Position numbers and translations under genes: made by a program
The notes under the pieces: generated by a model
Database searches by the model: none
Told to the model about the DNA's origin: nothing
What the model saw: the letters and a program-made list of their open reading frames with translations, nothing else
In this document: positions 3,776 to 31,036 of the stretch, one piece after another
Position numbering within the stretch: the stretch's first letter is position 1
Layout of the letters: the number at the start of each line of letters is the position of its first letter
From: a virus
Reading direction: 5' to 3' (one strand)
IMG/VR virus record: IMGVR_UViG_3300037845_000012
Location: 1 to 45,602 of that record
Length of the DNA stretch: 45,602 nucleotides

Positions 3776-5365
3776 ATGGCTGATCTCGTCCCAATTTCCA
3801 CGGACGTTGACCAAGATAGGCTGAAGCGCATGATGGCGCTTTCTGGCGGGGCGCTCACTGCTCCTACGCCTACGCCAGCGTCCAATAATCCTGAACAGCG
3901 AGCAGTCCTGCAATCCATCGCTTCGCAGAATCCGCTCGTCAAAGGCGATACCAATCCTGAATCGGCCGGACGCATGGCCAGGATAGGGATGCTGAGCAAT
4001 GTCGCTGGAGGATCGCAACCCACTGCGCCTTCTCGGAAGAACGAAGACATAGCGGCACCGACAGTAAATCGCCTAACGCCCATCGGCGGAGAATCGCTGC
4101 CTGCAAGCAATGCGACTAGCCTACAACCCATCGGCCAAGCGGCACCGACGAAGCCTCTCAGCGCCGATCAGACGCGCCTCCAGAAACTTCAATGGGAAGA
4201 TCAGAATCCGTGGGGATCGGAAAACAACCATCCCGGCGCACTCGGGAAACTAGCTCACATCGGCGCGAAGGCCGGAAACATTGCACTTGACGTTCTGAAT
4301 CCACGGGCAGCGGCGTTGATCCCTGGTACGGAATTAAACCGCGCGACGCAGGAAGAGAAGTTGAAGGGTGACATTGGCGCACAAGAAACACGCGAGACCG
4401 CGGCGCTTGGTGAAAAGAACCGCGAGCGTCACGAAGAGAACGTAGAAGACACCAATGCCAAGAAACTCGATGAAGCCCAGCAAAAGATCGATGAGACAGA
4501 GAACAAGGACAAAAGCGCCAGAGAGATCGCCTTACGCAAGCAAGGGCTGAAGCTGGACGAAGGGGGCAATGCCGTTCCACTCGCGCCGGAAGACATGAGT
4601 GAGAACGAGCGCGCCGTGCATGACCTGAAAGTGGCGCAAGCGGATTCCGCAACTGCAAAGGCGGCATTGGATCGCATCAAAGCGGACCCGAATTCACCGC
4701 AGAATCAGGCGGCGCTTGAGCGTATTCGTGTGATGGCAAAGAACGCAGCCACAGCGGCTGGGAAGTTGGGCCTCGATAAAGATAAATACGTGGCTGATTA
4801 TTTCGGGCTGGACAAAGAGGGCAATCCGATTCCGGGAACATCGGTAGATGAGAAAACCGGAAAGCCTGTCGGGCCTAAGATCGCCCATGCGGTCGCTGCC
4901 CTTGATGCTCCCGGAGCAGAACGCCTGAAGCGTTCAGACCTCGCCATCAACGTCAAGCAGAACAGCGATGACATGAAGCAAATGATTCGGGATAACCCCG
5001 ACCTATTCGGCAAGGTCGCTGGTCGATTCACAACGACACGGCAAATGATGGGCTCTGACGATCCAGCAATTTCGCAGCTCGGCATAGCCATGCACAATAT
5101 CGCGCTCGCCAGCAACGGAGCACACGGACTTCGTTCCGCTGAGGCTGTGAAGGAAACTGAAGACAAGATTCTCAATCACTTCCGCAACGGACCAGACGCG
5201 ACGATTGCGGGAATCGATGAGATCAACCGTAGCGTGAACACTTTCATTGAAGCGGCCAAGCATGGCAAGCGACCAATGCCTGAAGGCGGAATGGCACCCG
5301 CAGCGGCGGCTGGTAGTGAAGTACCTTCGTTCAGTGATTGGAAGAAAAAACAAGGAAATCCCTGA
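3776..5365 (+). CDS. Coiled-coil internal/ejection protein candidate
   Basis: A 529-residue protein. Residues about 1-160 are disordered-looking and Pro/Ala/Ser-rich. Residues about 175-330 are highly charged heptad-like helix (QEEKLKGDIGAQETRETAAL, ENVEDTNAKKLDEAQQKIDE) and probably form a coiled coil. The C-terminal third is helical (MHNIALASNGAHGLRSAEAV). The start follows the previous stop without a spacer, and the stop overlaps the next ATG (TGATG). By position it is the main internal virion or DNA-ejection candidate. No membrane-active or lytic domain is recognisable. Confidence 0.6.
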   Translation: MADLVPISTDVDQDRLKRMMALSGGALTAPTPTPASNNPEQRAVLQSIASQNPLVKGDTNPESAGRMARIGMLSNVAGGSQPTAPSRKNEDIAAPTVNRLTPIGGESLPASNATSLQPIGQAAPTKPLSADQTRLQKLQWEDQNPWGSENNHPGALGKLAHIGAKAGNIALDVLNPRAAALIPGTELNRATQEEKLKGDIGAQETRETAALGEKNRERHEENVEDTNAKKLDEAQQKIDETENKDKSAREIALRKQGLKLDEGGNAVPLAPEDMSENERAVHDLKVAQADSATAKAALDRIKADPNSPQNQAALERIRVMAKNAATAAGKLGLDKDKYVADYFGLDKEGNPIPGTSVDEKTGKPVGPKIAHAVAALDAPGAERLKRSDLAINVKQNSDDMKQMIRDNPDLFGKVAGRFTTTRQMMGSDDPAISQLGIAMHNIALASNGAHGLRSAEAVKETEDKILNHFRNGPDATIAGIDEINRSVNTFIEAAKHGKRPMPEGGMAPAAAAGSEVPSFSDWKKKQGNP

Positions 5366-6666
5366 TGGGCGCAATCGCTCAAGCACTGACAGATAAAGAC
5401 TTCCTAAACGCTCATCCCGACGATCAGAAGAAATATCTCTCGTCCGTCGATCCCGACTTTGCGAAGGGCTCGCCGCAAGATCAGCAAGCGTACTTGAATC
5501 ACATCTTGGAACCAACACGCAAGGCGACGATTTCCCAGTCCGGCGCGCAGTTTGAAAAAGTTAACAAGATGCAGCCTAATGAGCGACAAGCGAATAGCTT
5601 TCTGCTTGGTGCGGCTTCGGGTGCTTCAGGACTTCCTGAGACTCTTCATCCAATCCATGATGCCGCTACTCAATCTCCCCACTCCATCGGAGATATAGCT
5701 AAGGAAGGGTTGAAGGCTTCGCTCGGTCCTCTTCCTAGCGTGGCATCGTCGCTCTACAACATCGGAAAAGAAGCACTCACGCCAGCAGGGAAGAATGAAG
5801 ATCCAGAGGATGTTTCGGAACGTCGCGCTCATGCGGTTGGTAGCGGCGTGGGAATGCTTGCACCAATTGCGCTTGGCGAAGGTGTTGAACGTGCTCCCGG
5901 TGAGATAGGCGGAGCGACAAGGGGATTGGCGAAACTGGGTACGGATGTAACAGGGAAACCTAAACCCATCGTGAAACTCGCCCTAGGCGGTGAACGGTCA
6001 CGGGCTCTTGCGGAATTAGCCGATCCTGAAAGCGCGGCCTATGAGCGGAAAGCTCAAGATTTTATGCGCCGAGGCCGCGAGCAGGATGCGCTAGATCGCC
6101 GCGCGGCGAGTGGCGCTAAGGCAGCCGCCAAAGCTGAACCGCCAACGCCCGGTCCAACGGAAGGTCCAGCAACGCCTACTTCCGGCGTCGTGAAAATCCC
6201 CATCCCTCGGGAATTAACTCCTGGCGAAAAAGTCGGGTACAACGCCTCTACGCCTCGAAAGCTACTTGTGAATAATGCCCTTCAAGGCCGTCCCGGAGCT
6301 GGTGACATGCTACGGAATATCGGCCTATCGCCTTTGTATGTAGGCGAAGAAATGGGTGGAGGACCGCGGGAGCGCATCAGCTTGGAGAATATCGGGAAGT
6401 CAACGGAGCCGCAGCCTATCCCAGAACGCCGAACTGGCACGGCAAATGACCGCCCGCAAGTCGCTTACAGGCCAAGCGAAAAAGCGGTGACGATGAGCGA
6501 GGAACGCAAACCGCTAGGTAGGGAATTTGACGAAGGCGAGATGACCCACGACATCGAACGCAGCAAATCTATCCTTAGAAACCCTAGGGCCACAGCCGAA
6601 GATCGGCAGGTAGCGCAGAGCCGTCTTGACGAGGCTTTGGAACGGCGGGCGGGTACAAAGCGCTGA
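5365..6666 (+). CDS. Large structural/internal protein candidate
   Basis: A 433-residue protein. The start at 5365 is chosen because it overlaps the previous stop as TGATG and has AAGGAA about 10 bases upstream; an upstream in-frame TTG at 5338 is less likely. The N-terminus reads MGAIAQALTDKDFLNAHPDD, with a repeated DPDF.KGSPQDQ pattern. A central part with Gly/Ala-rich helices (HAVGSGVGMLAPIALGEGVE) could interact with membrane, as ejection proteins do. The C-terminus is charged. It ends the late rightward run; its last 83 bases overlap a convergent small membrane-protein gene. Confidence 0.6.
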   Translation: MGAIAQALTDKDFLNAHPDDQKKYLSSVDPDFAKGSPQDQQAYLNHILEPTRKATISQSGAQFEKVNKMQPNERQANSFLLGAASGASGLPETLHPIHDAATQSPHSIGDIAKEGLKASLGPLPSVASSLYNIGKEALTPAGKNEDPEDVSERRAHAVGSGVGMLAPIALGEGVERAPGEIGGATRGLAKLGTDVTGKPKPIVKLALGGERSRALAELADPESAAYERKAQDFMRRGREQDALDRRAASGAKAAAKAEPPTPGPTEGPATPTSGVVKIPIPRELTPGEKVGYNASTPRKLLVNNALQGRPGAGDMLRNIGLSPLYVGEEMGGGPRERISLENIGKSTEPQPIPERRTGTANDRPQVAYRPSEKAVTMSEERKPLGREFDEGEMTHDIERSKSILRNPRATAEDRQVAQSRLDEALERRAGTKR

Positions 6667-6969: not shown

Positions 6970-8835
6970 ATGTTCCTAAAAGCCATCAGTACGTTGCTTC
7001 TTATATTCGCCTTCTGTTTGCCAGCGTTCGGGCAGGTTCCGCCCGGAGGATATGGACCTGGCACGGGCGGGGGGAACAGTAGCGGGAGCAGCAACTCGGT
7101 AGCGCTGCATATCATTGACTCCACCAACCCCGCGCAAGTCACCACCACAATCAAGGCTCCGGGGAAGATTTGCCTGGATGGTGTGTGGACGAATACGCAA
7201 TCTACGCTGACTTCCGCTTCGTGCGGATTCAACGCGGCGACGATGAATGGTTGGACGCTAATAGGCGTTTCCACTTGCGCGGCCGGTGGAGCGCAAGAAG
7301 TAAGCGGAGCGGTTACAGCCTCCGGTACGATCACCGTCAATAGCGCGACGCAGGTCACGCTCAGCATAGCGAATACGGGAACTGTGGCCTCGGGTGGGTG
7401 CTTCGTTATCGGCCCGCTGGAAGATACGGGTCTCACCGCGCTCGATACCGCCATTCAGGCTTACCCCACTTGCGCGGCGGGATTACTGCCGGGTGGCGTA
7501 ATCCTTTTCAGCGCAGCTCACTTCATCACCGCGCCTGCAAATTGCCGTCCCCTTGGAACGGATACCAGCGCATGGGGCCAGGGCATGGACATTCACGGAC
7601 AGGGCCAGGGAATCACGATTCTTATTCCGGTCGCTCCGCTTACCGGATGTACCGGCGGATTCAGCTCACATGCCTGTCTAAATGGCGTGCTGTCATCGCA
7701 CTGGCATGATCTTGCCATCTTTGGAATGAACAACTCGCTGAACGCGAACTCCGCTAATGAATACTTTTTCGAGTTGAACAGTTTCAGCCGACTCGATCAC
7801 GTGTTTTTCTCCGGCCTGGGTGCAGCCTGTACTTTTCAGCAATGCATAGGCGTAGAGTTCGCTGGTTCTCAGTCTGCCGGTACGATTATCGCCGACTCTA
7901 CAATTGACGGCTTCGGCAATCCCTTGGTGTCACTCGCCACACAGGGGATTGTTTACATCTTCAACTCTATCGTTCAGGACTACTACCAGCGGGGCATAGA
8001 TATACCGGGCGGCGGCACTGGCCAAGGAATGAATTTGATCATGCGCAACTCACTGGTGGCCAGCGGGATCGGCAGCCACAACAATAACGTCGGACTTTGG
8101 TGCAACAGTACCAGTAGCACTGCACCCGCAAATATCTGGAGCAGCGGCAACACATTTTACGCCAACGGTTCAACCTCTACAGCTTCGGTCTACGTGGTGA
8201 ACAATGCCAACTGCGTTTACGACATGGACGGGGACTGGATGGGCGACGGCACCGCGCCAAACACTGACTTTATCTCATTTGACAACAACGGCGGCACGGC
8301 CGTAGCGACCAACCACACGATTTTCCTAGGCGGAGCGTCCACCGGATTCGATGTATCGAATGCGCTTAGCGGTTCCAAGTTTATCTATGACAACTCCGTG
8401 GTGTTCGGGAGCAACCGCCTGAACAGCGTGGCTGGAACCTCGATGGTCGCGGACGGGCATTCAATCAATGGAGCATGTACCGGGACCGTTGGAGCGGCTG
8501 CCACACTTGGACTTTACGGCACCGGGCCGAACGTCACCGTAACTACGTGTGCGGCTCCCCCTGTGGGCAGCGGCATACCGATGACCGGCCCTCGCACATT
8601 GAACAATCTGGTAGTTACCGTCGGGACGGGTGGGACAAATGCTTCATCGGGCGTCGTGACCGTGCTCAAGAACGGCGGCGCAACGACAATCACTTGCACT
8701 CTCGGCACCGGGACATTCTGTCAAGACGGTCTGCATTCGGTTTCGGTCGTGGCGGGTGATTTGATTTCGATCCAGTTCACAACGCAAGCGGCGGACACGC
8801 TCGCAAACGTGAAGGCATTCGCAGCATGGCAGTAA
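6970..8835 (+). CDS. Secreted right-handed beta-helix protein (spike/depolymerase-like)
   Basis: A 621-residue protein with a clear Sec signal peptide: MFLKAISTLLLIFAF, then a small-residue cleavage site near AFG-QV (about residue 22). After a Gly/Ser linker come long runs of short beta-rungs (HDLAIFGMNNS, LDHVFFSGLG, IADSTIDGFGNP, IYDNSVVFGS) typical of parallel beta-helix pectate-lyase-like folds. The C-terminal 90 residues look like a separate beta-sandwich (LNNLVVTVGTGGTNASSG). The mature part has 16 cysteines, which suits oxidative folding outside the cytoplasm. GGAG lies upstream of the ATG. A virion tail spike would not normally carry a signal peptide, so export to the periplasm or outside is inferred. 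Confidence 0.8.
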   Translation: MFLKAISTLLLIFAFCLPAFGQVPPGGYGPGTGGGNSSGSSNSVALHIIDSTNPAQVTTTIKAPGKICLDGVWTNTQSTLTSASCGFNAATMNGWTLIGVSTCAAGGAQEVSGAVTASGTITVNSATQVTLSIANTGTVASGGCFVIGPLEDTGLTALDTAIQAYPTCAAGLLPGGVILFSAAHFITAPANCRPLGTDTSAWGQGMDIHGQGQGITILIPVAPLTGCTGGFSSHACLNGVLSSHWHDLAIFGMNNSLNANSANEYFFELNSFSRLDHVFFSGLGAACTFQQCIGVEFAGSQSAGTIIADSTIDGFGNPLVSLATQGIVYIFNSIVQDYYQRGIDIPGGGTGQGMNLIMRNSLVASGIGSHNNNVGLWCNSTSSTAPANIWSSGNTFYANGSTSTASVYVVNNANCVYDMDGDWMGDGTAPNTDFISFDNNGGTAVATNHTIFLGGASTGFDVSNALSGSKFIYDNSVVFGSNRLNSVAGTSMVADGHSINGACTGTVGAAATLGLYGTGPNVTVTTCAAPPVGSGIPMTGPRTLNNLVVTVGTGGTNASSGVVTVLKNGGATTITCTLGTGTFCQDGLHSVSVVAGDLISIQFTTQAADTLANVKAFAAWQ

Positions 8836-8846
8836 ACGGAGCATCC

Positions 8847-11084
8847 ATGAAAAGACTTTTGTATCTGCTTCCGCTGTTCGCGCTCTCAACTCATGCGATG
8901 GCTCAAATTGCAGCTTTCCCAGGTGCGCAAGGCGGAGGAGCGGCCTCAGTTGGCGGGCGTGGTGGCGCGGTGATGGAAATCACCAACACGAACGATTCCG
9001 GAGCAGGTTCCCGTCGTGCGTGCCTGCAAGGATCAGGGCCGCGCACCTGCATCTATCGCGTTGCTGGACTGTTCCCGGTCACGAGTGGCGATGTCCTTGT
9101 GAGCAATCCTTTTGTCACCGATGCGTGCCATACGGCGCCCGGCGAAGTCATCATTGGCGGGCCGAACACGAACGGCGCCGCTCTCCGCGTCTCCACGCAT
9201 GATGTCATCGTGCGCGGATGCGTGTTCAGTCCCGACAATGCCTCAACGGTTTCAGGGCCGGACAGTGGGACCGTGGGCATCGCTATCCTGAATTGCAGCA
9301 ACATCACGCAAAGCCTGCCCCCAGCTCCGCCCGCTAATTCAGGCTGCTACAACATCATTTTCGATCATGTGACCACGCGCTGGAGCGGGAACAAGTCATG
9401 GATTACCGGGAGCAACTTCACGCCAACGCCGACGCAACCAGGCGTGGGGCCAAATCACTCCATCACCACGCAATGGTCGCTTGACTACGAACCGCACGAG
9501 GGCCACCCGGTCGGCTTTGGGACCGCAACAGATGAGTCGTGCGTGAGTTCGCTTGCCAAAGGTGGATGCCTTTCCGCCTACGAGACAGACATTGATTTCC
9601 ACCACAACGTGCTCGTTAACATCGACCATCGCATCCCTGAAAATTCCAATCGATCAACGCGCTGGAACAGCAACATCATTTACAACTGGGGTACCTACGC
9701 CAATCAGTTTCTCGGTGCGGAAACCATCGACCTCATCAACAACAAATACATTACTGGCAATTTGAATGGCTTGGGAGCCCAGCCGCATCCCGTCCACTTC
9801 ACCATGAACAGCCCGGAACTGTGCGGCACGCCAAGCGGCTATATGTCCGGGAATATTTGGGGGCCTCCGGGCACGAATACGGTCAACGCCAATCCGTGGA
9901 GTCTCGCGGTAGCAACAAACGGGGAAAACGCGCAAAGCGAAACTGATCCCAACCCTCCCGGCGGACTTTGCCCGCAAGCGACAAACACGCCAGGGATTCC
10001 CGTGCCAAGTTCATGGCAGCGCAGCAGCCCAATGTCGCCCGGTGCGTTCCCGATTGTTGCCGATCCTGCAGCGACGCTCGATACGCTTCTTCTTCCAACG
10101 GTAGGCGCGAGCCAGCATCTTGATTGCAATGGCAACTGGTTTTCTCACCGTGACCCGCAAGATAAACGCATTCTCCAGCAATACCAGACGGGAGCAGCGG
10201 GAGGCTACTGGCCCAACGGCGTCACCTTCGCCGGACAACCAACTTTCCCGCCGCCTCTACCGAACTGGACCGACACGCCCGTTGTGAATGGAACCGTGTG
10301 CGTCGAATCGCAGCATGACGGCATCCCTGATCAGTGGAAAAAGGCCAACGGCTACTCTACGACCGACCCGAATCTGCATAATCAAGTGCTGGCCAGCGGC
10401 TACACCATCCTGGAAACGTACCTGGCTGGTTCAGGCGTCACGCCACCACCGGTCAATCCCGTAAGTCCGAATGGCGCGACGATCACGCCGGGATCTGGCG
10501 GAAGCCTCACAGATGCCAGCGGGAATACTTGGACGCTCGGCGCCGCGGTCCCGGTTTCGAGTAACCCGGATTGTTCTCCGCTTTCGTGCGGGAACGTCAT
10601 CATAAAGAACGGAACGACGCTCACCGGCACGGCCGCAACCCTGGTGCTCTGGTACAACAGCTTTATCTATCAGGAGAACGCGGCCGGAAACTGGTGGCAA
10701 TACACCGCTGGGGGAACCTTCGTAAAGGTTGGCGGCGATCCGCGGCCTCCGGTCACTCACCCTACTGTTACCTGTATTCCGAATTCGATACAGACCGGCG
10801 GCACAAGCACTTGCACATCGAATCAGATCGTCGTGTGGTCGGCTTCCATTGGCACGATCACGCCAGCGGGCATTTACACCGCTCCGGCAATGGCCACGAC
10901 GGCTACGATCACCGGTTCCAATGCAAACGGCGCCGGCACAGTTCCCATTACAGTTACAGCGATCCCACCGCCGGTCTGCCCCGCGCTCCCAGTTAAGGTG
11001 GCCATCACGGTCGGCGGAGTCTCGATTGGTTCCATGACTTGCACGGCGAACGCAGCGGGGGTTTATTCATGCTCAATTCCATAA
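8847..11084 (+). CDS. Secreted pectate-lyase-type polysaccharide lyase
   Basis: A 745-residue protein. The start at 8847 is preferred over 8826 because GGAG lies just upstream and it begins a signal peptide, MKRLLYLLPLFALSTHAMA. The mature N-terminus has the family-1 lyase opening AFPGAQGGGAASVGGRGG, then ITNTNDSGAGS, DHVTTRWSG, DFHHNVLVNIDHRIPE and NSNIIYNWG, matching the order in bacterial PL1 pectate lyases. A segment HDGIPDQWKKANGYST plus GYTILETYLAG is the calcium-binding-like module that often follows such lyases. The C-terminus has Ig-like strands. Nineteen cysteines occur in the mature part. Such enzymes cleave polygalacturonate by beta-elimination; the true substrate here is unknown. 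Probably acquired from a bacterial secretome. Confidence 0.85.
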   Translation: MKRLLYLLPLFALSTHAMAQIAAFPGAQGGGAASVGGRGGAVMEITNTNDSGAGSRRACLQGSGPRTCIYRVAGLFPVTSGDVLVSNPFVTDACHTAPGEVIIGGPNTNGAALRVSTHDVIVRGCVFSPDNASTVSGPDSGTVGIAILNCSNITQSLPPAPPANSGCYNIIFDHVTTRWSGNKSWITGSNFTPTPTQPGVGPNHSITTQWSLDYEPHEGHPVGFGTATDESCVSSLAKGGCLSAYETDIDFHHNVLVNIDHRIPENSNRSTRWNSNIIYNWGTYANQFLGAETIDLINNKYITGNLNGLGAQPHPVHFTMNSPELCGTPSGYMSGNIWGPPGTNTVNANPWSLAVATNGENAQSETDPNPPGGLCPQATNTPGIPVPSSWQRSSPMSPGAFPIVADPAATLDTLLLPTVGASQHLDCNGNWFSHRDPQDKRILQQYQTGAAGGYWPNGVTFAGQPTFPPPLPNWTDTPVVNGTVCVESQHDGIPDQWKKANGYSTTDPNLHNQVLASGYTILETYLAGSGVTPPPVNPVSPNGATITPGSGGSLTDASGNTWTLGAAVPVSSNPDCSPLSCGNVIIKNGTTLTGTAATLVLWYNSFIYQENAAGNWWQYTAGGTFVKVGGDPRPPVTHPTVTCIPNSIQTGGTSTCTSNQIVVWSASIGTITPAGIYTAPAMATTATITGSNANGAGTVPITVTAIPPPVCPALPVKVAITVGGVSIGSMTCTANAAGVYSCSIP

Positions 11085-11425
11085 CGCGGCTCATCGTCGT
11101 TTTGTTTCTAGTCGCGCTACCGCTTCAGGCCCAAACCGTCCATACGGTCAAGCTGACATGGAACGATACGGTCAATCCGACTGGCACGACTTACAGCGTC
11201 TACCGCGCAGCCGCGGCCTGTTCCACTAACCCTACGCTCACCAAGCTCAACACGTCGCCCATCACGGTCATGACCTACACAGATTCCACAGTGACGAATG
11301 GGACGACGTACTGCTACGCCGCAACGGCAGTCGGGCCAGGCGGGGAATCGGCTTTCTCGAACGATGCGCCAGCGGTCATCGTGGCGCCGCCGAACGCGAT
11401 CACGATTACGGTCACGGTGAACTAA
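11069..11425 (+). CDS. Secreted fibronectin-III protein
   Basis: A 118-residue protein that begins MLNSITRLIVVLFLVALPLQ, with cleavage predicted at about AQA/AQT. The rest is one fibronectin type III domain: VKLTWNDTVNPTGTTYSVYR, then TSPITVMTYTDSTV and YCYAATAVGPGGESAFSN, the canonical Y.Y.V.A.N-type ending. The start at 11069 lies 16 bases inside the lyase gene and is the first ATG of the signal peptide. The stop TAA shares its last base with the next ATG. It is probably a partner or adhesion domain for the two preceding exported proteins. Confidence 0.75.
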   Translation: MLNSITRLIVVLFLVALPLQAQTVHTVKLTWNDTVNPTGTTYSVYRAAAACSTNPTLTKLNTSPITVMTYTDSTVTNGTTYCYAATAVGPGGESAFSNDAPAVIVAPPNAITITVTVN

Positions 11426-11820
11426 TGGTCACAGACGACGTTGTAAACCGATTCGCGCAAGCCATCGCCAAGGAAGAAGGGTTTTATGTGCCTAATTCAG
11501 TACCCGCGCGCGCTCACAACCCCGGTGACATCACGGACGACGGCGATGTTGGCAATGGCGTCATTCAAACGGCGGGACCGGATGGCGCGAAGATCACTGT
11601 TTATGCGACAGACGCGGACGGCTGGGCAGCTCTGTGCAAGAAAGTGCGACGAATGCTTGACGGAGACTCCCACACCTACCCAACAGACCTGACGCTGATG
11701 GAAGTCGGGCTCCGCTACAGCGGCAACGCAAGCTGGGCCATGAACGTAGCCAAGCAGATGGGCGTGGATTCGCGCATGACGCTCGCGGAACTAGCTTCGG
11801 ACAATCAGGAGACGGCATGA
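11425..11820 (+). CDS. Lysozyme-like endolysin candidate
   Basis: A 131-residue protein with IAKEEGFYVPNSVPARAHNP, GDITDD and later ITVYATDADGWAAL. This order (glutamate-glycine near the N-terminus, RAxNPGxI, then FxxPxxGWxAL) recalls small phage lysozyme-fold or P5-type muramidases. Glu17 or Glu18 is the likely catalytic acid. The ORF has no signal peptide, so it would need a holin. It opens the lysis region and is coupled at both ends (TAATG upstream, ATGA downstream). The exact bond cleaved is not determinable. Confidence 0.65.
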   Translation: MVTDDVVNRFAQAIAKEEGFYVPNSVPARAHNPGDITDDGDVGNGVIQTAGPDGAKITVYATDADGWAALCKKVRRMLDGDSHTYPTDLTLMEVGLRYSGNASWAMNVAKQMGVDSRMTLAELASDNQETA

Positions 11821-12107
11821 GCCAAATCTGGAGTTTCATCGTCGCGCACGACACCATCAGTACGCTGGTGGCTTACTACGTGGCTATCTCGTTCACAGGC
11901 TCACTGCCAGCGCCCACCGCGAAGTCCACGATGTTCTACCAGTTCTGCTTTAAGTTCGTAAACACGCTGGCCGGGAACCTGGCACGCGCCTACTCCAGCA
12001 AAGTGGAGAGCAGCCCGAACTTCGTTGATGCCATGAACATGCAGAACGCCAAGATCGGCTCAGACAAGCGCGTCGTGGAGATGCCCGTTGAAGCAGCCAA
12101 ACCCTAG
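11817..12107 (+). CDS. Single-pass membrane protein, holin-region candidate
   Basis: A 96-residue protein. One hydrophobic segment, TISTLVAYYVAISFTGSLP (about residues 13-31), is followed by an amphipathic part (FCFKFVNTLAGNLARAYSSK) and an acidic/basic tail. It is ATGA-coupled to the lysozyme-like gene. Small membrane proteins of this pattern next to endolysins are often holins or anti-holins, but no homology can be claimed from here. Confidence 0.6.
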   Translation: MSQIWSFIVAHDTISTLVAYYVAISFTGSLPAPTAKSTMFYQFCFKFVNTLAGNLARAYSSKVESSPNFVDAMNMQNAKIGSDKRVVEMPVEAAKP

Positions 12108-13908: not shown

Positions 13909-14361
13909 ATGACTTTTCTAGCGAAACTCGGAAGTTTTCTGGCAAAGGGAATTGCGCTGTTGACGGGCCTCACGCCGCTCATCTCGCCGCTGTTCGGCAG
14001 TAAGGCTCAACAAGCGGCTGGCGTAGCGGGTACGGTGGTGAACGATCTGACGGCAGTTGGTCAGGTCGTAGTGAGCGCAGAGGCGATCCTGGGAGCGGGT
14101 ACCGGGCCTGCGAAACTGGCCGCTGCGGCACCGCTTGTGGCCAACATCGTCAAGACTTCGGAGCTGGTGTCCGGCCACAAGATCGCCAACGAAACCCTGT
14201 TTATCCAGGGTTGCACCGATCTGACCAACGCCGTAGCCGAAATCCTGAACTCACTGGACGCTGGGGCGGTGCAGTCGCAAGGGCAGCCCATTCCGGCCGT
14301 TCCCGCGGTCATCAAGTCGCCCGTGCCAGCGGCTCTGACGGGTACCACTACCGCGGCATGA
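13909..14361 (+). CDS. Ala/Val-rich helical protein, unknown function
   Basis: A 150-residue protein with AAAGGAG before the ATG. The N-terminus (MTFLAKLGSFLAKGIALLTG) is an amphipathic, weakly hydrophobic helix; the middle is Ala/Val-rich, and the tail is Pro/Ala-rich. Its stop overlaps the start of the NlpC/P60-like gene (ATGA). It could be a membrane-associated partner of that enzyme; no family is recognised. Confidence 0.6.
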   Translation: MTFLAKLGSFLAKGIALLTGLTPLISPLFGSKAQQAAGVAGTVVNDLTAVGQVVVSAEAILGAGTGPAKLAAAAPLVANIVKTSELVSGHKIANETLFIQGCTDLTNAVAEILNSLDAGAVQSQGQPIPAVPAVIKSPVPAALTGTTTAA

Positions 14362-14834
14362 TCTTGCTCCGTTTTGTCGAAGGTGGCGGCTGGGACAGCA
14401 AGGTCATCCGTTGGGACACCCGCTGCCACTATTCGCACGTGGAATGCCTGGACCCGGCCGGTGCGTCGGTAACGTACGGTGCCATGCTTCAGGGTGGGGT
14501 CAAGCGGCGTGCGTTCGGCGATCCTGAGTACAAAGGGGCGGTTAACTTCAAGGTTGTGGGAATCGGCGCTACGGAGGCTCAGCAGGACGCTTTTTACCAG
14601 TTCGTGTTCTCGCAGCTCGGCAAGCCGTACGACTGGAAAGCGATAGTCAGCTTCGGGCTGGGTGAGCGCGACTGGCGGAGCCCGAATAGCTGGTTTTGCT
14701 CGGAACTGATGGTGGGAGCCCTGGAAGCGGCGGGAATGCTTCAGATCCCCAACGACATGCCCAGCTGGCGCATTACCCCGCGAGATGCCTGGATGCTCGT
14801 GGGAGTGAAATCGAGTATAAGAGCTGAACTATGA
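14358..14834 (+). CDS. NlpC/P60-like (permuted papain-fold) cysteine hydrolase
   Basis: A 158-residue protein. The start at 14358 is coupled to the previous stop (ATGA); the reading frame is open further upstream but overlaps the preceding gene. The sequence has the order of permuted NlpC/P60 or YiiX-type enzymes: a histidine in CHYSHVECLDPAG near residue 25, then SQLGKPYDWKAIVSFGL and the likely nucleophile in WFCSELMVGALEAAG. Such enzymes hydrolyse amide or ester bonds, in phages commonly peptidoglycan stem peptides. It may add to the lysozyme-like enzyme at 11425 or process a virion protein. No signal peptide is seen. Confidence 0.75.
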   Translation: MILLRFVEGGGWDSKVIRWDTRCHYSHVECLDPAGASVTYGAMLQGGVKRRAFGDPEYKGAVNFKVVGIGATEAQQDAFYQFVFSQLGKPYDWKAIVSFGLGERDWRSPNSWFCSELMVGALEAAGMLQIPNDMPSWRITPRDAWMLVGVKSSIRAEL

Positions 14835-15262
14835 GCATGTTCGACCACGAAAAAACTAAGGCGCTACAGCGCATCGGTGACGAACTCCACGAGATTGCCC
14901 ATCTGCTTCGACGGCTGGTGGGTAAGCAGCACGCCACATTCGCAACACTCATCATCTCAGACTCGAAAGGAAACCGACTTATGCCCGCGACACTCCCTGT
15001 AGGAAAGACAGCAACCGCAGTTCTGCACGAATTCGTATCGGCTGGCGGGGCGGAACTCGCTCCCATCGGCCCGGTAAGCTACACGTCAAGCGCTCCAGCC
15101 ATTGCGACGGTAGACCCCGCGAGTGGTCTCATTACCGCCGTAGCGGCTGGTGTGGCAACGATCACCGGCCTGGACGGCGGCAATCAGTTGACCGCCAGCG
15201 ACTCAGTAAGCGATACGCCGTTGGTGGCCACGGTCGCAACGCTGGTCATCACGCCGAACTAA
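14831..15262 (+). CDS. Bacterial Ig-like (Big2) domain protein
   Basis: A 143-residue protein coupled by ATGA. The first 35 residues form a charged helix (KTKALQRIGDELHEIAHLLR). The rest is a Big2-like beta-sandwich: SYTSSAPAIATVDPASGLIT, then AVAAGVATITGLDGG. Ig-like domains of this kind decorate phage virions or bind glycans. It closes the lysis/cell-wall block; no signal peptide. Confidence 0.75.
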   Translation: MSMFDHEKTKALQRIGDELHEIAHLLRRLVGKQHATFATLIISDSKGNRLMPATLPVGKTATAVLHEFVSAGGAELAPIGPVSYTSSAPAIATVDPASGLITAVAAGVATITGLDGGNQLTASDSVSDTPLVATVATLVITPN

Positions 15263-15287
15263 ACCGTCTACAAATAACCACGTATTG

Positions 15288-15335
15288 AATTCCGGCGACG
15301 CGGTTCCGCTAAAATGGGGCCATGTCGCCGGAATT
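15288..15335. promoter_or_regulatory. 12-bp perfect inverted repeat
   Basis: AATTCCGGCGAC at 15288-15299 is repeated as its exact complement GTCGCCGGAATT at 15324-15335, with a 24-base loop. It lies just after the late lysis block and about 90 bases before the early promoter. No T-tract follows, so it is not a classical terminator. It may be an operator or an RNA structure that separates the converging late transcripts from the early promoter. A 29-codon ATG frame beginning at 15322 overlaps it, but I give it no gene call. Confidence 0.55.
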
Positions 15336-15425
15336 GGCTATCCTCGTAGAGATGTACCCCACCGTACCCGTGGAGACGCTTTTGCGCGCCTTCGCCCTCG
15401 CCTGTGAATAACTCAAAGATTTAGC

Positions 15426-15455
15426 TTGACAACGGATACTATGCCGTAGTATCCT
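15426..15455 (+). promoter_or_regulatory. Sigma70-type promoter of the early region
   Basis: TTGACA at 15426-15431 is followed after 18 bases by TATCCT at 15450-15455. Transcription would start about 15461-15463, at the GTG of the ribbon-helix-helix gene, so the message may be leaderless. The only other consensus-like promoter I noted is at 27535. Confidence 0.7.
15434..15454. promoter_or_regulatory. Operator-like palindrome between -35 and -10
   Basis: GGATACTA (15434-15441) and TAGTATCC (15447-15454) form a perfect dyad around TGCCG. It fills the spacer and overlaps the -10 box, the usual place for a repressor. The gene it precedes encodes a ribbon-helix-helix protein, a family that normally binds such short dyads and often regulates itself. 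Confidence 0.7.
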
Positions 15456-15461
15456 GCATTC

Positions 15462-15620
15462 GTGGCTAACACAACCATTCAAGTCGTTGTAGACGAGAAG
15501 GTCAAGAAAGAGCTTCGCGGCCTAGCCAAAGCCGAGAAGCGGACCCTCTCGAATCTGGCAGCAACCCTCCTCGAATCAGCCCTCCAAGCGCGCCAATCTT
15601 CCAAAGAGCAGGCGGCCTAA
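15462..15620 (+). CDS. Ribbon-helix-helix (CopG/Arc-like) regulator
   Basis: A 52-residue protein from GTG at 15462. TTIQVVVDEKVKKELRGLAK gives the beta-strand and first helix, and RTLSNLAATLLESALQAR the second helix of the ribbon-helix-helix fold. Proteins of this family bind DNA as dimers by a two-stranded ribbon in the major groove. The dyad in its own promoter suggests autoregulation. It could control the early transcription unit or act as an antitoxin-like partner; no toxin is adjacent (the next gene is a GIY-YIG nuclease). Confidence 0.75.
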   Translation: MANTTIQVVVDEKVKKELRGLAKAEKRTLSNLAATLLESALQARQSSKEQAA

Positions 15621-15626
15621 AACACC

Positions 15627-16136
15627 ATGGAAAACGTCAAAAAGGCCGACATTTCTTGCGTCCCAGAAGTTATAAACGGACAAGCTAATACTGGTTTACA
15701 TATTGCCGACAGGATAGCGACTGGCGAATTCGGCGATAAGGAATCCATTGACGGAGCTATTCCGGGATTAGGGCAGAGGTTTTCCGGCGACGACTTCCGC
15801 GATCTTCTACGTCCTGGTGTCTACGCATTCTTCAAAGACGGACTGCCTATTTACGTAGGTAGCTCCTACTCCATCCTTCAGCGAGCAGCGTACAAAGATC
15901 ACAACGCGACCGAAGCTCGCAAGGAATGTGACGAAGTTTTTCTATTCCCCTGCGTGTCTAAAGAGGCCGCTGAGAGCCTCGAAACCTTCCTGATCGGCAA
16001 ATTCAGGCCGCGTGACAACAAAGCAAAACGGTGCTCCTACGTGCAAGATGTCTTTTCTGTCAGCGGAGCCGCTGCATGGAAGATTCTTGAGGATCATGGT
16101 TGGCGAATGAATGAAAAGAAAGCGGTGGGCCAATGA
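15627..16136 (+). CDS. GIY-YIG nuclease
   Basis: A 169-residue protein. The GIY-YIG module lies at about residues 60-140: GVYAFFKDGLPIYVGSS (the GIY and YVG strands), RAAYKDHN, and the metal-binding glutamate in ESLETFLIGKFRPRDNK. It is probably a homing or recombination nuclease. The first 50 residues and the last 30 are family-specific or unrecognised. It lies 6 bases after the ribbon-helix-helix gene and is probably co-transcribed with it. A free-standing GIY-YIG nuclease next to a repressor is a little unusual. Confidence 0.8.
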   Translation: MENVKKADISCVPEVINGQANTGLHIADRIATGEFGDKESIDGAIPGLGQRFSGDDFRDLLRPGVYAFFKDGLPIYVGSSYSILQRAAYKDHNATEARKECDEVFLFPCVSKEAAESLETFLIGKFRPRDNKAKRCSYVQDVFSVSGAAAWKILEDHGWRMNEKKAVGQ

Positions 16137-24346: not shown

Positions 24347-24552
24347 CCAAGCAAACAGGCAGCGCACGGAAGGCGAACGGTTGGGATGAGCGCGACTACA
24401 AACTCTGGAGCGAATTGATGAACCTTCCGAGCTACGGGCTAGTCGCAAATAACGCTGATAATCCGATGCTGGCACGCAAAGACGTGATTCAACTACTAGA
24501 AAAAGCAGCGGAAAAGAGGTTCGATGAAGCACACAATCGAAGAGTTTTATAA
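24343..24552 (+). CDS. Small hypothetical protein
   Basis: A 69-residue protein from ATG at 24343. Helical (WDERDYKLWSELMNLPSYGL, DVIQLLEKAAEKRFDEAH). Overlaps the next gene by 29 bases. No family recognised. Confidence 0.6.
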   Translation: MTKQTGSARKANGWDERDYKLWSELMNLPSYGLVANNADNPMLARKDVIQLLEKAAEKRFDEAHNRRVL

Positions 24553-24682
24553 GTTTGCGAATCGAATCGCCAAGCGGGACCACTGGTTTATTGGCGGATT
24601 TTTGGGCGCTGTCTACGAAGAATGGAAAGAAAAGCATTCTAACAAGAAAAAGAGAATTACGCGCAAGCGAGGTCGAGCGTGA
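24524..24682 (+). CDS. Small basic hypothetical protein
   Basis: A 52-residue protein with AGAGG upstream of the ATG at 24524. Aromatic helix (TIEEFYKFANRIAKRDHWFI) then a strongly basic end (NKKKRITRKRGRA) that could bind nucleic acid. The stop overlaps the next GTG. Confidence 0.55.
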   Translation: MKHTIEEFYKFANRIAKRDHWFIGGFLGAVYEEWKEKHSNKKKRITRKRGRA

Positions 24683-25602
24683 CCAAACCAGGCAGCGATG
24701 AGCGGTTGCGGCGGTTAGCGGTAAGTTGGCCGCACGATATTCCGCCGAATACAGTTACAGGCGCGTGCTACCCGAATTGCAGACGTTGCGCTGTGGAGGC
24801 CGCGCTGGCCGACAGGCCCGCGCCGATGTGCGGATGTGGTGATCATACCGAATTGTGCGAAAAGTGCGGCAAATGTCTACTAGCTTGCTGTGAATGCGAC
24901 GAGAAATCGGCCGCCAAGGTCGGCGCGCCAGCCCCGAGCAGTGAGGCGGTTGAGGAGCGTTCGATGGGTGGGGTACGGGGACAACTCCACCTAGCGATTA
25001 ACAAACTGCATTTCATGGACTCTCAGGGCGATGGACCGCTGATTTATCGCCGTGAGGTGCACGAAGCAATCGACCGCACGCTGGCCGCGACGGAGGAAAC
25101 CCCGCTGTTGCTCGACGGAGTAGCGATGGTGCGTGAACTATACGAACACTTTCAAGGTCCACACGCCTGTGGAGACTTTACTTGCAGTTGTGGAAACTGC
25201 GGTCTATGCGACTTCCGCAAGAAAGTGGAAACATGGCTGGCAGCCCGCCGCGAGCCGGGGCCGGGCGATGAGACTGAGTTTCAGCGTGGAGTACGGACAT
25301 TGGCCGACTTGATTCGTTGTCACTATCCGAGCTTCAACGAGCACAAAATCCACGAAATGTTCGACGTGTTGATTCCACCGACTGGCGTGGCGGGGCCGGG
25401 TGATCGAGCGATGGCTGGGGCGCGGGAGTGCTGCAGCAAGTACAGTACTAAGCAGGGGCACGACTATACCTGCGACCTTCCGCATGGGCACACGGGGATA
25501 CATATGGCACGGAAATACGGTGGGTATATTGCTGAATCGTGGACGGATACCGAGGCGGCGGCCATCGAACGCTCGCAAACGCCGCAGGGGGTGCCCAAGT
25601 GA
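24679..25602 (+). CDS. Cys-rich multi-zinc-knuckle protein
   Basis: A 307-residue protein from GTG at 24679 (GTGA). At least three Cys clusters: CYPNCRRC, MCGCGDHTELCEKCGKCLLA with CCEC, and CGDFTCSCGNCGLC. The C-terminal CDLPHGHTGIHMARKYGG is a pattern common in small phage zinc proteins. The middle is helical (RREVHEAIDRTLAATEE). No enzyme motif. A regulatory or nucleic-acid-binding role is inferred. Confidence 0.65.
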   Translation: MTKPGSDERLRRLAVSWPHDIPPNTVTGACYPNCRRCAVEAALADRPAPMCGCGDHTELCEKCGKCLLACCECDEKSAAKVGAPAPSSEAVEERSMGGVRGQLHLAINKLHFMDSQGDGPLIYRREVHEAIDRTLAATEETPLLLDGVAMVRELYEHFQGPHACGDFTCSCGNCGLCDFRKKVETWLAARREPGPGDETEFQRGVRTLADLIRCHYPSFNEHKIHEMFDVLIPPTGVAGPGDRAMAGARECCSKYSTKQGHDYTCDLPHGHTGIHMARKYGGYIAESWTDTEAAAIERSQTPQGVPK

Positions 25603-25952
25603 CCTACACGATCACTGTGCCGGATGTGCCGCCGAGCTTGAACAAAGTGCTGAGGATGCATTGGACCTCGAAGGCCAAACTTAACTCTAAATGGGACGCT
25701 GAGATTTTTGTTGCGGCGCCCAAGTTTTTCCCTATTGGTAAGATGCGTGTAATCATAAAGTTGCATCATTCGCGGCTCTATGACAAAGATAACGCTTATG
25801 GCGCCGTAAAGCCTGTGGTTGATGCTCTCGTGAGCACGGGATTGTTGAAAGACGATACTTGTCACTGGTTGGAGTTGACAGTTGAGCAGGTCAAGAGCAC
25901 GCGCAAGGACAAGCGCACGGTCATCGAGATAGGCCCAGCGGAGGCAGCGTGA
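25599..25952 (+). CDS. rusA: RusA-type Holliday-junction resolvase
   Basis: A 117-residue protein from GTG at 25599 (GTGA). VPDVPPSLNKVLRMHWTSKA begins the RusA fold; YDKDNAYGAVKPVVDAL and LLKDDTCHW hold the conserved aspartates (DxDN, then DD) that bind metal. The length matches RusA. The enzyme cuts four-way junctions at specific dinucleotides and would resolve structures produced by the ERF-YqaJ pathway before packaging. Overlaps the next GTG. Confidence 0.92.
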   Translation: MTYTITVPDVPPSLNKVLRMHWTSKAKLNSKWDAEIFVAAPKFFPIGKMRVIIKLHHSRLYDKDNAYGAVKPVVDALVSTGLLKDDTCHWLELTVEQVKSTRKDKRTVIEIGPAEAA

Positions 25953-26536
25953 GCACAACGGCGGATAGTTACGGACATGGCGCGCTTTGTGGGTGCCATT
26001 CATGCACTTTGATACGTGGTGGGGCGGATCCGGGCTCACTTGCGGCTGCGGCACTACGATCTGATCATGGGTCAGAACCGGTCTGCAACTGCCACGACTG
26101 CACGCAGGCGCGCGGGCGATGGCTGGCAGAGCAAGTGAAGCGCGATTACGAGACTTTTACGTCTATCCTTGGCTCATTCGAAAATCGGCTGATGGAGCAT
26201 ATCTCCTACAAGTCAGGCGTGTTAGCTTCGATATTTGACCAGCTGGCGCGCATCGAGCAATCCCAGGCGATGCTGGCAGGTCGACAGGACGCGATTGTGG
26301 AGAACTTGGCGACTGCTCAGCGAATGATTCAGAGTTACGCGGCCGGGACGAATCAGCACGTTACGAACATGGAGATGGACCTCGCGCGGCATGTAAGCCT
26401 GAAAGTGGATGACGCGTTTGCGACGATTGGGCAATTCATGGCCGCGGTGACGGACAACATGGAGCACGTAGCAGAACGTCTCCCTGCGGTAGCCATAACT
26501 GCAACAAAACGCGGTAGTTCCCGGAAAAAACGGTGA
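25949..26536 (+). CDS. Zinc-knuckle/coiled-coil protein
   Basis: A 195-residue protein. Two CxCxxC units (LCGCHSCTLIRGG, VCNCHDCTQARGR) are spaced about 30 residues apart in the first 55 residues; then a long helical part (TFTSILGSFENRLMEHISYK, QDAIVENLATAQRMIQSYAA) probably forms a coiled coil. A basic C-terminus (KRGSSRKKR). Unknown function. Confidence 0.65.
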   Translation: MSTTADSYGHGALCGCHSCTLIRGGADPGSLAAAALRSDHGSEPVCNCHDCTQARGRWLAEQVKRDYETFTSILGSFENRLMEHISYKSGVLASIFDQLARIEQSQAMLAGRQDAIVENLATAQRMIQSYAAGTNQHVTNMEMDLARHVSLKVDDAFATIGQFMAAVTDNMEHVAERLPAVAITATKRGSSRKKR

Positions 26537-28541: not shown

Positions 28542-29258
28542 GTGCCGAATTACGTTCAGTCTACGCTCCAAAACCCGCTGTCTGGTTTGATGCGCGGTGT
28601 GGTTGGCCATTCGTTTGGAGTCAACCTCGCCTCAACCATTACGGCATCGCCTGGCGGTTTAGTACGAGCCGCTGGCGGTATCGTGACGATCACGGTCACC
28701 GCCGCGCACAACTGGCAGATCGGGAACACCGTTTTCATTGGTCTCGGGCAAATCGCAGGGACAGCGGGCATCCCCGGCGCAACCGGTGCTGAACCTACAT
28801 CCGTGAACGGCACGCGCTTCAACGGCCGATACACGATTACCGCCATTGGCTCAGCCACCACCGCAACGCTCGTTCCCGTGGACCCGGTCATACTCCATCA
28901 GGCGCCGGACACGGGCGGAACCGGCACAGCAATATCTATCGCTTACGAAACACCCGCCGCACCACAAGCAGGCCAAGCCTTCGCACTTGCAGGTCCGCTC
29001 TCTCTCTCATCCTCATTCGGCTTCGCGGTAGATGGTAAGTTCTCTGCTGCTCCCGGCGCTTTCGAGGTAGACGTGCAAGTAGCGGACATCGACGCCGATG
29101 CAAACTATCAGACCGCCAGCGGCATGAACATCACCACGGTAGACGCCACAAATAACACCTTCCACGCGGATTGCACGCTCGTGACCGCCAAATTCGCAAG
29201 AGTCCGGCTACTCTCGCGCACCAACGCCGTGGGCCTAGTCTCAACGATTAGGGGATAA
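28542..29258 (+). CDS. Virion surface/structural protein, unknown role
   Basis: A 238-residue protein from GTG at 28542 with AAGGAG five bases upstream. Beta-rich, with AAGGIVTITVTAAHNWQIGN and RYTITAIGSATTATLVPVD, a small domain (hxhGN...NGxYxV) similar in style to ones in the tail hub. The second half is also beta (FEVDVQVADIDADANYQTAS). Its place before the terminase is unusual for a tail gene. Confidence 0.65.
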   Translation: MPNYVQSTLQNPLSGLMRGVVGHSFGVNLASTITASPGGLVRAAGGIVTITVTAAHNWQIGNTVFIGLGQIAGTAGIPGATGAEPTSVNGTRFNGRYTITAIGSATTATLVPVDPVILHQAPDTGGTGTAISIAYETPAAPQAGQAFALAGPLSLSSSFGFAVDGKFSAAPGAFEVDVQVADIDADANYQTASGMNITTVDATNNTFHADCTLVTAKFARVRLLSRTNAVGLVSTIRG

Positions 29259-29271
29259 GGACTACTTTAGC

Positions 29272-29550
29272 TTGAATAATCAGCCAAAAGGCGTACGTTA
29301 TGGCGGTCGTAAAAAGGGTACGCCCAACAAAAGAGACGGCTTAGAACCATTTCTGCGGAAAGTATTCAAGCTCGCGGATCCGGTCGAAGTAGCTGAGAAA
29401 TTGCTTAATGCGGATACTCCTGACAGCAAATTGCTAATCCGTTTGCTTGAATACAAATTCGGACGGCCACCGCAAGAAATCAGCGGGCCAGATGGCGGCG
29501 CAATCCCGGTAATCAACATAGGAGCCCTCCCACGCCGCAACCATGCCTGA
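29272..29550 (+). CDS. Small terminase-like DNA-binding protein
   Basis: A 92-residue protein from TTG at 29272. RYGGRKKGTPNKRDGLEPFL is a basic N-terminal motif often seen in proteins encoded just before large terminases. A helical middle (DPVEVAEKLLNADTPDSKLL) follows. Overlaps the large terminase by 8 bases. The small-terminase role (recognising the packaging site) is inferred from position. Confidence 0.6.
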   Translation: MNNQPKGVRYGGRKKGTPNKRDGLEPFLRKVFKLADPVEVAEKLLNADTPDSKLLIRLLEYKFGRPPQEISGPDGGAIPVINIGALPRRNHA

Positions 29551-31036
29551 AATCAACATCGGGGATTATTACCAGCCCGATCATGGCGCTGAATGGGGAC
29601 CGCAACATCAATTCCATGCCAGCACAGCGAGGTACCCGCTTCAAGAAGGAACGCGCGGCGGTGGAAAGACTATCGCCCTTCTCTGGGAAGGCATACGACA
29701 GGCCCTTACCGTTCCCGGCAGTAACAACCTTCTGTTACGACGCATCCTCAAATCCGCTGAGATGGGCGGAATCGAAGATCACTTCCTCAAATACGTCCCA
29801 AAGGGCATCTATCGGCAATACAACGGACAAAAACACGCTGTCCGTTTCCACAATTCTTCCAACCTGTTCTTCGGGCACATCAAAGCCGACAGCGACCTCA
29901 AGCAATACCAAGGGCCTGAGTATCTTTACGTGGGGTGGGACGAACTCACGCAATTTACTTATCCTCAGTGGGCGTTTATCAAAGGCTCAAATCGCTGTCC
30001 TGTCCCAATGGATATCTATGGGGAAAAGCCCAAGGCCACGATGGCTGGCGGAACGAATCCTAATGGGATCGGGTCCGGTTGGGTCAAAGCTCTTTGGATC
30101 ACTAAAAAGGTCCCGGCGGGCATCGAAGACTTAACCTACGATCCAAAAGATTATGAAGTCATCCACTCGACGTTCGCAGACAATCCCATCTACGCCAACG
30201 ATGCCGACTACATCAGCGGCCTCAGTTCTCTCCCGCCAGCCCTCCGCGCAGCCTGGCTTGAAGGAAGCTGGGATGTCCTCGCCGGGCAGTTCTTCCCCAA
30301 CTGGGAACTCGCAAGGCACGTCAAGCCCCGAGAAGCGATTGAGTTTCAGGATTGGCAACCGCGTTGGATTGGTATCGATTGGGGCTTCAACCACGCCACC
30401 TGCGTACTGTGGTTCACAAGGGCGTCGGTCACGAACGCTCTCGGCGAGAAACGCGATGCAATCGTATGCTACCGCGAGCTGGTTAGGCGCGGAATTAATG
30501 AGGCGAAACTCGCAGAAGAAATCCTCAAGTACAACGACGGAGACAAGATAGCCAATGTCTACCTCAGCCCCGAAAGATTCAATCGAGTCAACGAAGAACA
30601 TACTATTGCAGACCGGATGGGTGACGTTTTTTCTGGTACTGGACTTCCTCGACCTGAGCGGGCCAATAATGACCGTGTTGGTGGATGGCGTCTCCTATAC
30701 ACGTTGCTCGATACGGAAGGACTCACGGTCACAAGTAATTGCCGCGACCTTATCGAGAGCTTTCCGCAACTCATGCGTGATGAGAAAGACCTCGAAGACG
30801 CGGCCAGGGAAGGTTCCGACCTCTTTCTCGACGTAATGGAAGCGTGCCGGTACGGGTTGATGAGCTACTTCAATCCCCGGCCGGTACCGCGCGAAGTGCA
30901 AAACGATTTGCGCATCAAAGCCATCCCGGATAACACGCATAAGTACATGGAATATCTGCGGTTGAAGGCGCAACAGCCTGCAAATGATCTGTTCTTCAAC
31001 GTTCCGCAAAGGACGGCACCGTGGCGAAGGAACTAG
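29543..31036 (+). CDS. terL: Large terminase (packaging ATPase/nuclease)
   Basis: A 497-residue protein. Walker A is EGTRGGGKTIALLWEG (about residues 35-50); Walker B is YLYVGWDELTQF with catalytic Glu; a coupling segment is ATMAGGTNPNGIGSG. The nuclease half begins WIGIDWGFNHATCV with the first metal Asp, and continues to an acidic segment, RDLIESFPQLMRDEKDLEDA. The enzyme translocates DNA into the prohead and cuts it. It ends overlapping a small gene by 16 bases. Confidence 0.93.
   Translation: MPEINIGDYYQPDHGAEWGPQHQFHASTARYPLQEGTRGGGKTIALLWEGIRQALTVPGSNNLLLRRILKSAEMGGIEDHFLKYVPKGIYRQYNGQKHAVRFHNSSNLFFGHIKADSDLKQYQGPEYLYVGWDELTQFTYPQWAFIKGSNRCPVPMDIYGEKPKATMAGGTNPNGIGSGWVKALWITKKVPAGIEDLTYDPKDYEVIHSTFADNPIYANDADYISGLSSLPPALRAAWLEGSWDVLAGQFFPNWELARHVKPREAIEFQDWQPRWIGIDWGFNHATCVLWFTRASVTNALGEKRDAIVCYRELVRRGINEAKLAEEILKYNDGDKIANVYLSPERFNRVNEEHTIADRMGDVFSGTGLPRPERANNDRVGGWRLLYTLLDTEGLTVTSNCRDLIESFPQLMRDEKDLEDAAREGSDLFLDVMEACRYGLMSYFNPRPVPREVQNDLRIKAIPDNTHKYMEYLRLKAQQPANDLFFNVPQRTAPWRRN

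Follow-up and report, generated by a model that had tools for sequence, protein, structure and literature searches.

Signal peptides on three consecutive spike-type genes of a tailed phage suggest cysteine-rich spikes that may be exported before joining virions

The spikes of tailed phages are generally regarded as cytoplasmic proteins. Export of a late phage product is known for Lys44 of Oenococcus phage fOg44, an endolysin that is exported by the host Sec system before lysis (PMC6116005), and Agrobacterium phage Milano is reported to have an extensive disulfide network in its tail (PMC10811340). Searches of the open-access literature turned up no account of tail spikes or fibres that are exported. 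Here we analyzed a stretch of DNA from a soil phage (the window) that comprises a whole virus record of 45,602 bases and contains three consecutive genes with predicted signal peptides. The original prediction was that these genes form a secreted polysaccharide-degrading module, or that their products are displayed on the cell surface, rather than being virion spikes.

The window represents a nearly complete genome of about 45.5 kb that is circularly permuted, because positions 10-125 are repeated near the right end (45479 onward) and relatives align across both ends of the record. The ends themselves (1-135 and 45470-45602) overlap by about 130 bases, though the record is classed as linear, and in some relatives 100-127 bases are repeated exactly at the two ends. 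A terminase is recognizable at 29543-31036 and the major capsid protein at 36753-38090. Upstream of the three genes, on the same plus strand, lie a gene for a 529-aa protein without cysteine (3776-5365) that is kept in relatives and, judging by its position and composition, may encode an internal or ejection protein, and a gene for a 442-aa protein, also without cysteine, that directly precedes the cassette (5338-6666) and is partly kept in relatives. Immediately 3' of the cassette is a gene (11425-11820, plus strand) whose 131-aa product is, from its sequence and position, a putative lysozyme-like lysis protein; it is 65% identical to its homologue in the related genome G001 and has no family match in Pfam, PHROG or NCBIfam. 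It is followed by a gene (11817-12107, plus strand) for a small membrane protein of 96 aa that is putatively a holin. The cassette therefore occupies the interval between tail or internal-protein genes and lysis genes, as the tail spike does in Xanthomonas phage PBR31, whose gene order is internal proteins, tail spike, structural protein, holin and lysozyme. A conserved 450-aa fibre-like protein with neither signal peptide nor cysteine is encoded at 40870-42222 (plus strand); it may act as an adaptor or, in rivalry with the cassette, be the receptor-binding protein. Elsewhere in the window, 14211-14834 has a PHROG match (1e-18) to a family named enoyl-CoA hydratase/carnitine racemase-like, a name that is probably loose.

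The three cassette genes lie on one strand with tight spacing, and each start codon is preceded by purine-rich sequence (CCGGAGAGTACCACT-ATG at 6970, AACGGAGCATCC-ATG at 8847 and AGCGGGGGTTTATTC-ATG at 11069). The first (6970-8835) encodes protein 1, a spike-like protein of 621 aa; the second (8847-11084) encodes protein 2, a pectate-lyase-like protein of 745 aa; and the third (11069-11425), which starts within the end of the second, encodes protein 3, an FN3-domain protein of 118 aa. All three are predicted to be exported. Signal peptides were scored with a rule-based method (positive n-region, hydrophobic core and -3/-1 rule) rather than with SignalP, and the predicted peptides, at 6970-7032 (score 5.5), 8847-8903 (5.56) and 11069-11131 (5.81), each end before a glutamine: MFLKAISTLLLIFAFCLPAFG/Q, MKRLLYLLPLFALSTHAMA/Q and MLNSITRLIVVLFLVALPLQA/Q. 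By this score, and with permutations and an 80-locus set as controls, the three proteins have the n-, h- and c-regions and the -3/-1 site of Sec type I signal peptides. Shuffled versions of their first 35 residues reached the observed score in 0.1-0.9% of permutations, and of the 56 genes called in the window with products of 100 aa or more, exactly these three scored positive. Chance occurrence was rejected as an explanation, as only 1 of 80 loci in the control set, the best 80 PBR31-type matches described below, had a signal peptide. The mature proteins contain 16, 19 and 2 cysteines, respectively, the last forming a single potential pair, and the major capsid protein contains 2. The genes, their Sec signal peptides and the high cysteine counts of the first two proteins, all claimed in the original prediction, are thus reproduced here. 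An identity as exported endolysins is not supported for the three proteins, since no peptidoglycan hydrolase domain was matched behind the signal peptides in Pfam, PHROG or NCBIfam.

Protein 1 had no match in Pfam, PHROGs, NCBIfam or PDB sequence searches, nor in the phage collection. A scan of genome contigs gave nothing beyond a short C-terminal match in Rhodopila. The beta-helix proposed for this protein is backed by no library match, and the AlphaFold2 model is uninformative (pLDDT 31, with few relatives). Relatives of the phage were found by terminase search, four of them as records of 44-45 kb, and compared whole with other contigs. In G001, G002, G004 and G005 the genes before the cassette are kept and the cassette bodies differ: the body is a different spike-like protein in G001 and reads like a LamG domain with a GDSL/SGNH esterase in G002, G004 and G005. 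All four proteins begin with a signal peptide (that of G005 only given a GTG start), followed by a Q-x-P-x-G-[AG]-Y-G-P motif and a Gly/Ser linker; a variant in G002 and G004 has N in place of P at the fourth residue. The corresponding post-cleavage motif of protein 1 is QVPPGGYGPGTGGG (7033-7074, plus strand), and it is common to signal-peptide-bearing proteins of other phages. In G006, a segment of 213 aa is 98% identical to protein 1 and follows another signal peptide, in a genome whose terminase is only 27% identical to that of the window. The leader and motif of protein 1 thus precede unrelated bodies and the same body stands behind another leader, an arrangement of conserved N-terminal part and exchangeable bodies that was found for protein 1 only. 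No known virion-binding domain was recognized in the window's three proteins.

Searching IMG/VR with a degenerate DNA pattern of the motif yielded 14 matches, made up of 3 known relatives, 5 new phages with a signal peptide and 6 matches without one; in all 5 new phages the signal peptide lies directly before the motif. Further signal-peptide-bearing proteins of roughly 500-1500 residues are found in tandem, in tail-fibre-like positions, in G012, G013 and G007. These N-termini also bear on whether the signal peptides are removed. A hydrophobic N-terminus that stays uncleaved could anchor each protein to the inner membrane, the cell surface or the virion; cleavage is a prediction, and a surface-held adhesin or exclusion protein would need a signal peptide as well. 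However, the -3/-1 sites are good, often with Gln at +1, and the conserved motif or domain starts right after the predicted site, and we consider an uncleaved anchor improbable. Two observations concern neighboring genes. Homologues of the window gene at 28542-29258 occur in G010-G014, and in G011, G012, G013 and G014 they lie directly 5' of the signal-peptide-bearing motif protein, near terminase or portal genes; this gene is possibly a spike partner. In addition, G006 (14109-15836) and G010 (24530-26230; both in the orientation used here) encode homologous proteins of about 570 aa with signal-peptide-like N-termini just 3' of the terminase, where an exported protein would be unusual.

The lyase-like domain of protein 2 (8904-10436, plus strand) aligns with PL1-type pectate lyases and with VexL. 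Its N-terminal half matches the PHROG pectate lyase family at 1e-8, and small-profile comparison gave 1e-15 for PDB 9buj and 2e-8 for VexL. The match to NCBIfam PelZ (5e-16) scores 58 bits, far from the cut-off of 840, and there is no Pfam match; protein 2 falls short of the curated-model cut-off for polysaccharide lyase family 1 and is PL1-like by profile comparison only. The HRxP arginine is kept in all five phage relatives compared. The acidic pair of 9buj is replaced by GNK in protein 2, however, and calcium-dependent pectate lyase activity therefore stays putative. Within the phage collection the lyase has only distant matches. The G007 lyase is about 44-46% identical, and AlphaFold2 was uninformative for the domain (pLDDT 39, with few relatives). 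Accordingly, of the PL1-type pectate lyase with a calcium-type module that had been proposed, the pectate-lyase-like N-terminal half holds, the family assignment lies below the curated threshold, and the calcium-type module is backed by no library match. A pair of adjacent signal-peptide-bearing genes, for a 775-aa protein and a 455-aa lyase, was also seen upstream of a terminase-like gene in the phage-like contig L079 (1552-5248).

Protein 3 consists of a single FN3 domain, as originally predicted, and among isolated phages it is most closely related to virion proteins, including the major tail proteins of Bacillus phages. G007 likewise has a small signal-peptide-bearing FN3 gene after its lyase, with the same cysteine pair, and there too a homologue of the holin-like gene comes after the lyase-FN3 pair. 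The two FN3 proteins with signal peptides have two cysteines each, compared to none in the non-exported homologues, a count from which one aligned piece (CN2) was left out as too short.

The same association was found in a spike domain that the window's three proteins lack. In three IMG/VR contigs (L065, L066 and L068) a signal peptide is followed directly by a domain of about 80-100 residues that is 48-58% identical to the N-termini of the PBR31 tail spike (QIN95345) and five other phage proteins. These six non-exported proteins start with the domain and have neither a signal peptide nor a cysteine in their first 130 residues. By contrast, the three exported domains contain PCAGC or PCVGC where the six have PLAGG or similar. 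Among the best 80 matches to a profile of the PBR31-type domain, a signal peptide was present in 1 and the cysteine pair in 0. Loci with the PCxGC version, retrieved with a search pattern that selected for cysteines and not for signal peptides, had a signal peptide in 12 of 12 cases; 9 of these were new beyond L065, L066 and L068 (9/9 compared to 1/80, p about 1.6e-11). The coupling is not absolute, since a lone PBR31-type domain in L121, around position 2500, has a signal peptide without the cysteine pair; it is a possible intermediate. Paired cysteines make sense in an oxidizing periplasm, where they would form disulfides.

These counts bear on the reading that needs no export at all, in which the N-termini are hydrophobic by chance or for another role and the cysteines reflect oxidation of released virions. 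The disulfide network reported for the Milano tail illustrates that cysteine-rich virion parts alone are no proof of export, and the signal peptide calls are rule-based. But signal-peptide-type N-termini of differing sequence recur before many unrelated bodies, and the cysteine pairs follow the signal peptide rather than the domain, which argues against this reading; we regard it as very improbable. The cassette proteins are, on the evidence of their genes, very probably exported, as supported by the other signal-peptide-bearing genes of relatives at the same locus and by cysteine pairs that were gained almost only behind signal peptides.

Pooling large proteins (at least 350 residues) from the genomes and contigs compared, we found a signal peptide in 31 of 53 proteins of fibre-like composition (rich in N, S, T and G, poor in charge) and in 1 of 144 others, and this single positive resembles a lipoprotein. 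About nine more signal peptides, missed by the rule-based score, are evident on inspection. Cysteine density was 1.98 per 100 residues with a signal peptide and 0.77 without. The contrast in signal peptide frequency is plain, with pooled p-values that are overstated because the genomes are related and the composition limits were set after looking.

Cultured phages of Acidobacteriota have comparable genes. The podophages Tunturi 1 and 2 were isolated on Tunturiibacter (PMC11924767), in a report whose main text uses neither the term "signal peptide" nor the term "mass spectrometry". Between tail gene and lysis genes each has five signal-peptide-bearing genes, namely ORF12 (1190 aa), ORF13 (675 aa), ORF14 (about 919 aa), ORF16 (149 aa) and ORF17 (1184 or 1280 aa). 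ORF13 is under the limit of the bulk score, yet MKWLSRLGLILLWPVAGFA/Q is plain by eye. Annotations among these genes include tail spike, tail fiber and virion structural protein: ORF14 is annotated as tail spike or pectin lyase and ORF17 as virion structural. In the siphophage Tunturi 4, signal peptides are present on ORF113 and ORF114, and on ORF111 when translated from an earlier start. The annotated start of ORF111 (PP885687, about 80076-83171), at 80433, misses an upstream in-frame start, from which the N-terminus reads MNRISKAIGLCALALSVGSSYGQ, is signal-peptide-like and is 54% identical to ORF113 over about 100 aa. No signal peptide was found on the virion genes of Tunturi 3 or on the tail-fibre genes checked in Tunturi 5, and a universal habit of Acidobacteriota phages was rejected on these grounds. 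Like the window, Tunturi 1, 2 and 4 have consecutive, signal-peptide-bearing, cysteine-rich genes of fibre or spike type, which in Tunturi 1 and 2 also adjoin the lysis genes; their sequences showed no similarity to the three proteins of the window. The link of the window phage to Acidobacteriota rests on these phages. Phages in culture on the same host genus include some that have the trait (Tunturi 1, 2 and 4) and some that lack it (Tunturi 3 and the checked fibres of Tunturi 5), which makes the question directly testable.

We favor the reading that the three genes are a spike or fibre cassette, with receptor-binding and depolymerase functions, of a tailed phage whose exported spikes join virions, and give it a probability of roughly 0.6. 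It draws support from the position of the genes, from modular N-termini and from a spike domain common to the signal-peptide-bearing class and PBR31. What is read from the sequence is a set of predicted signal peptides, a spike-type position, exchange of bodies and leaders, signal peptides before a spike domain elsewhere, and cysteine pairs coupled to signal peptides; from these we infer that the proteins are in fact exported, form disulfides and attach to virions at lysis or afterwards. Each cassette protein would be made with a Sec signal peptide, cross the host inner membrane, lose the signal peptide and fold in the periplasm with disulfide bonds. Capsids and tails would meanwhile assemble in the cytoplasm. 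Once the cell is opened by the neighboring lysis genes, the exported spikes would come together with the virions and attach to them. In vitro attachment is known for fibres and spikes of model phages, which makes attachment after lysis chemically plausible. Against exported spikes stand the rule-based nature of the signal peptide calls, the lack of the PBR31-type domain in the window's proteins and the fibre-like protein at 40870-42222, which could hold the receptor-binding role.

That fibre-like protein also leaves room, in the window lineage, for the main rival, namely that the proteins are freely secreted depolymerases, exported during infection or released by lysis, that act on exopolysaccharide, capsule or biofilm and are not virion parts. 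Signal peptides together with a lyase-like domain would fit such a role, lyases with signal peptides occur in other phages too, and adsorption could be served by the conserved non-exported protein. However, the signal-peptide-bearing members include a tail-spike N-terminal domain and very long fibre-like proteins in tail position, the signal-peptide-bearing FN3 domain is of a virion-protein type, and in Tunturi 1 and 2 no large fibre gene without a signal peptide stands out. We judge free secretion to be less likely than exported virion spikes. The export half of the original prediction is thus supported by the signal peptides, the relatives and the cysteine coupling. Its step from signal peptide to non-virion protein, on the ground that spikes lack signal peptides, is not supported, as the signal-peptide-bearing class includes spike domains, spike positions, body exchange and annotated tail proteins. 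Capture of host genes as metabolic cargo was rejected, with virion-type domains and position against it.

If exported spikes are a trait of a class of phages, virion maturation would be coupled to lysis, spikes could be stabilized by disulfides, and it would no longer be justified to call a phage gene, such as a soil "pectate lyase", a secreted metabolic gene on the strength of its signal peptide. A broader proposal, to which we give even odds, is that tailed phages of Acidobacteriota, and probably of other soil bacteria, assemble in two compartments, with cytoplasmic capsids and tails and periplasmic, disulfide-bonded spikes, become infectious only once lysis mixes the compartments, and have passed this habit from lineage to lineage and across morphotypes as signal-peptide leaders and spike bodies were exchanged.

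The closest known systems each share one side of this proposal. PBR31 has the N-terminal domain of the L065, L066 and L068 proteins and the same order of internal proteins, spike and lysis genes, but its type of spike begins with the domain and has no signal peptide and no cysteine in the first 130 aa. To our knowledge, no signal peptides have been reported for the disulfide-linked tail of Milano; there, parts of the virion are reported to be disulfide-stabilized, whereas here the cysteine pairs go with signal peptides. Endolysins of the Lys44 type are, as proposed here, late phage proteins sent out by host Sec, but they degrade the cell wall, whereas the window encodes spike-like, lyase-like and FN3 proteins. 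Sec-exported endolysins and a disulfide-rich tail are therefore known; spikes that are themselves exported, as these genes suggest, would be the new element, and the two-compartment assembly that they imply would be new in kind.
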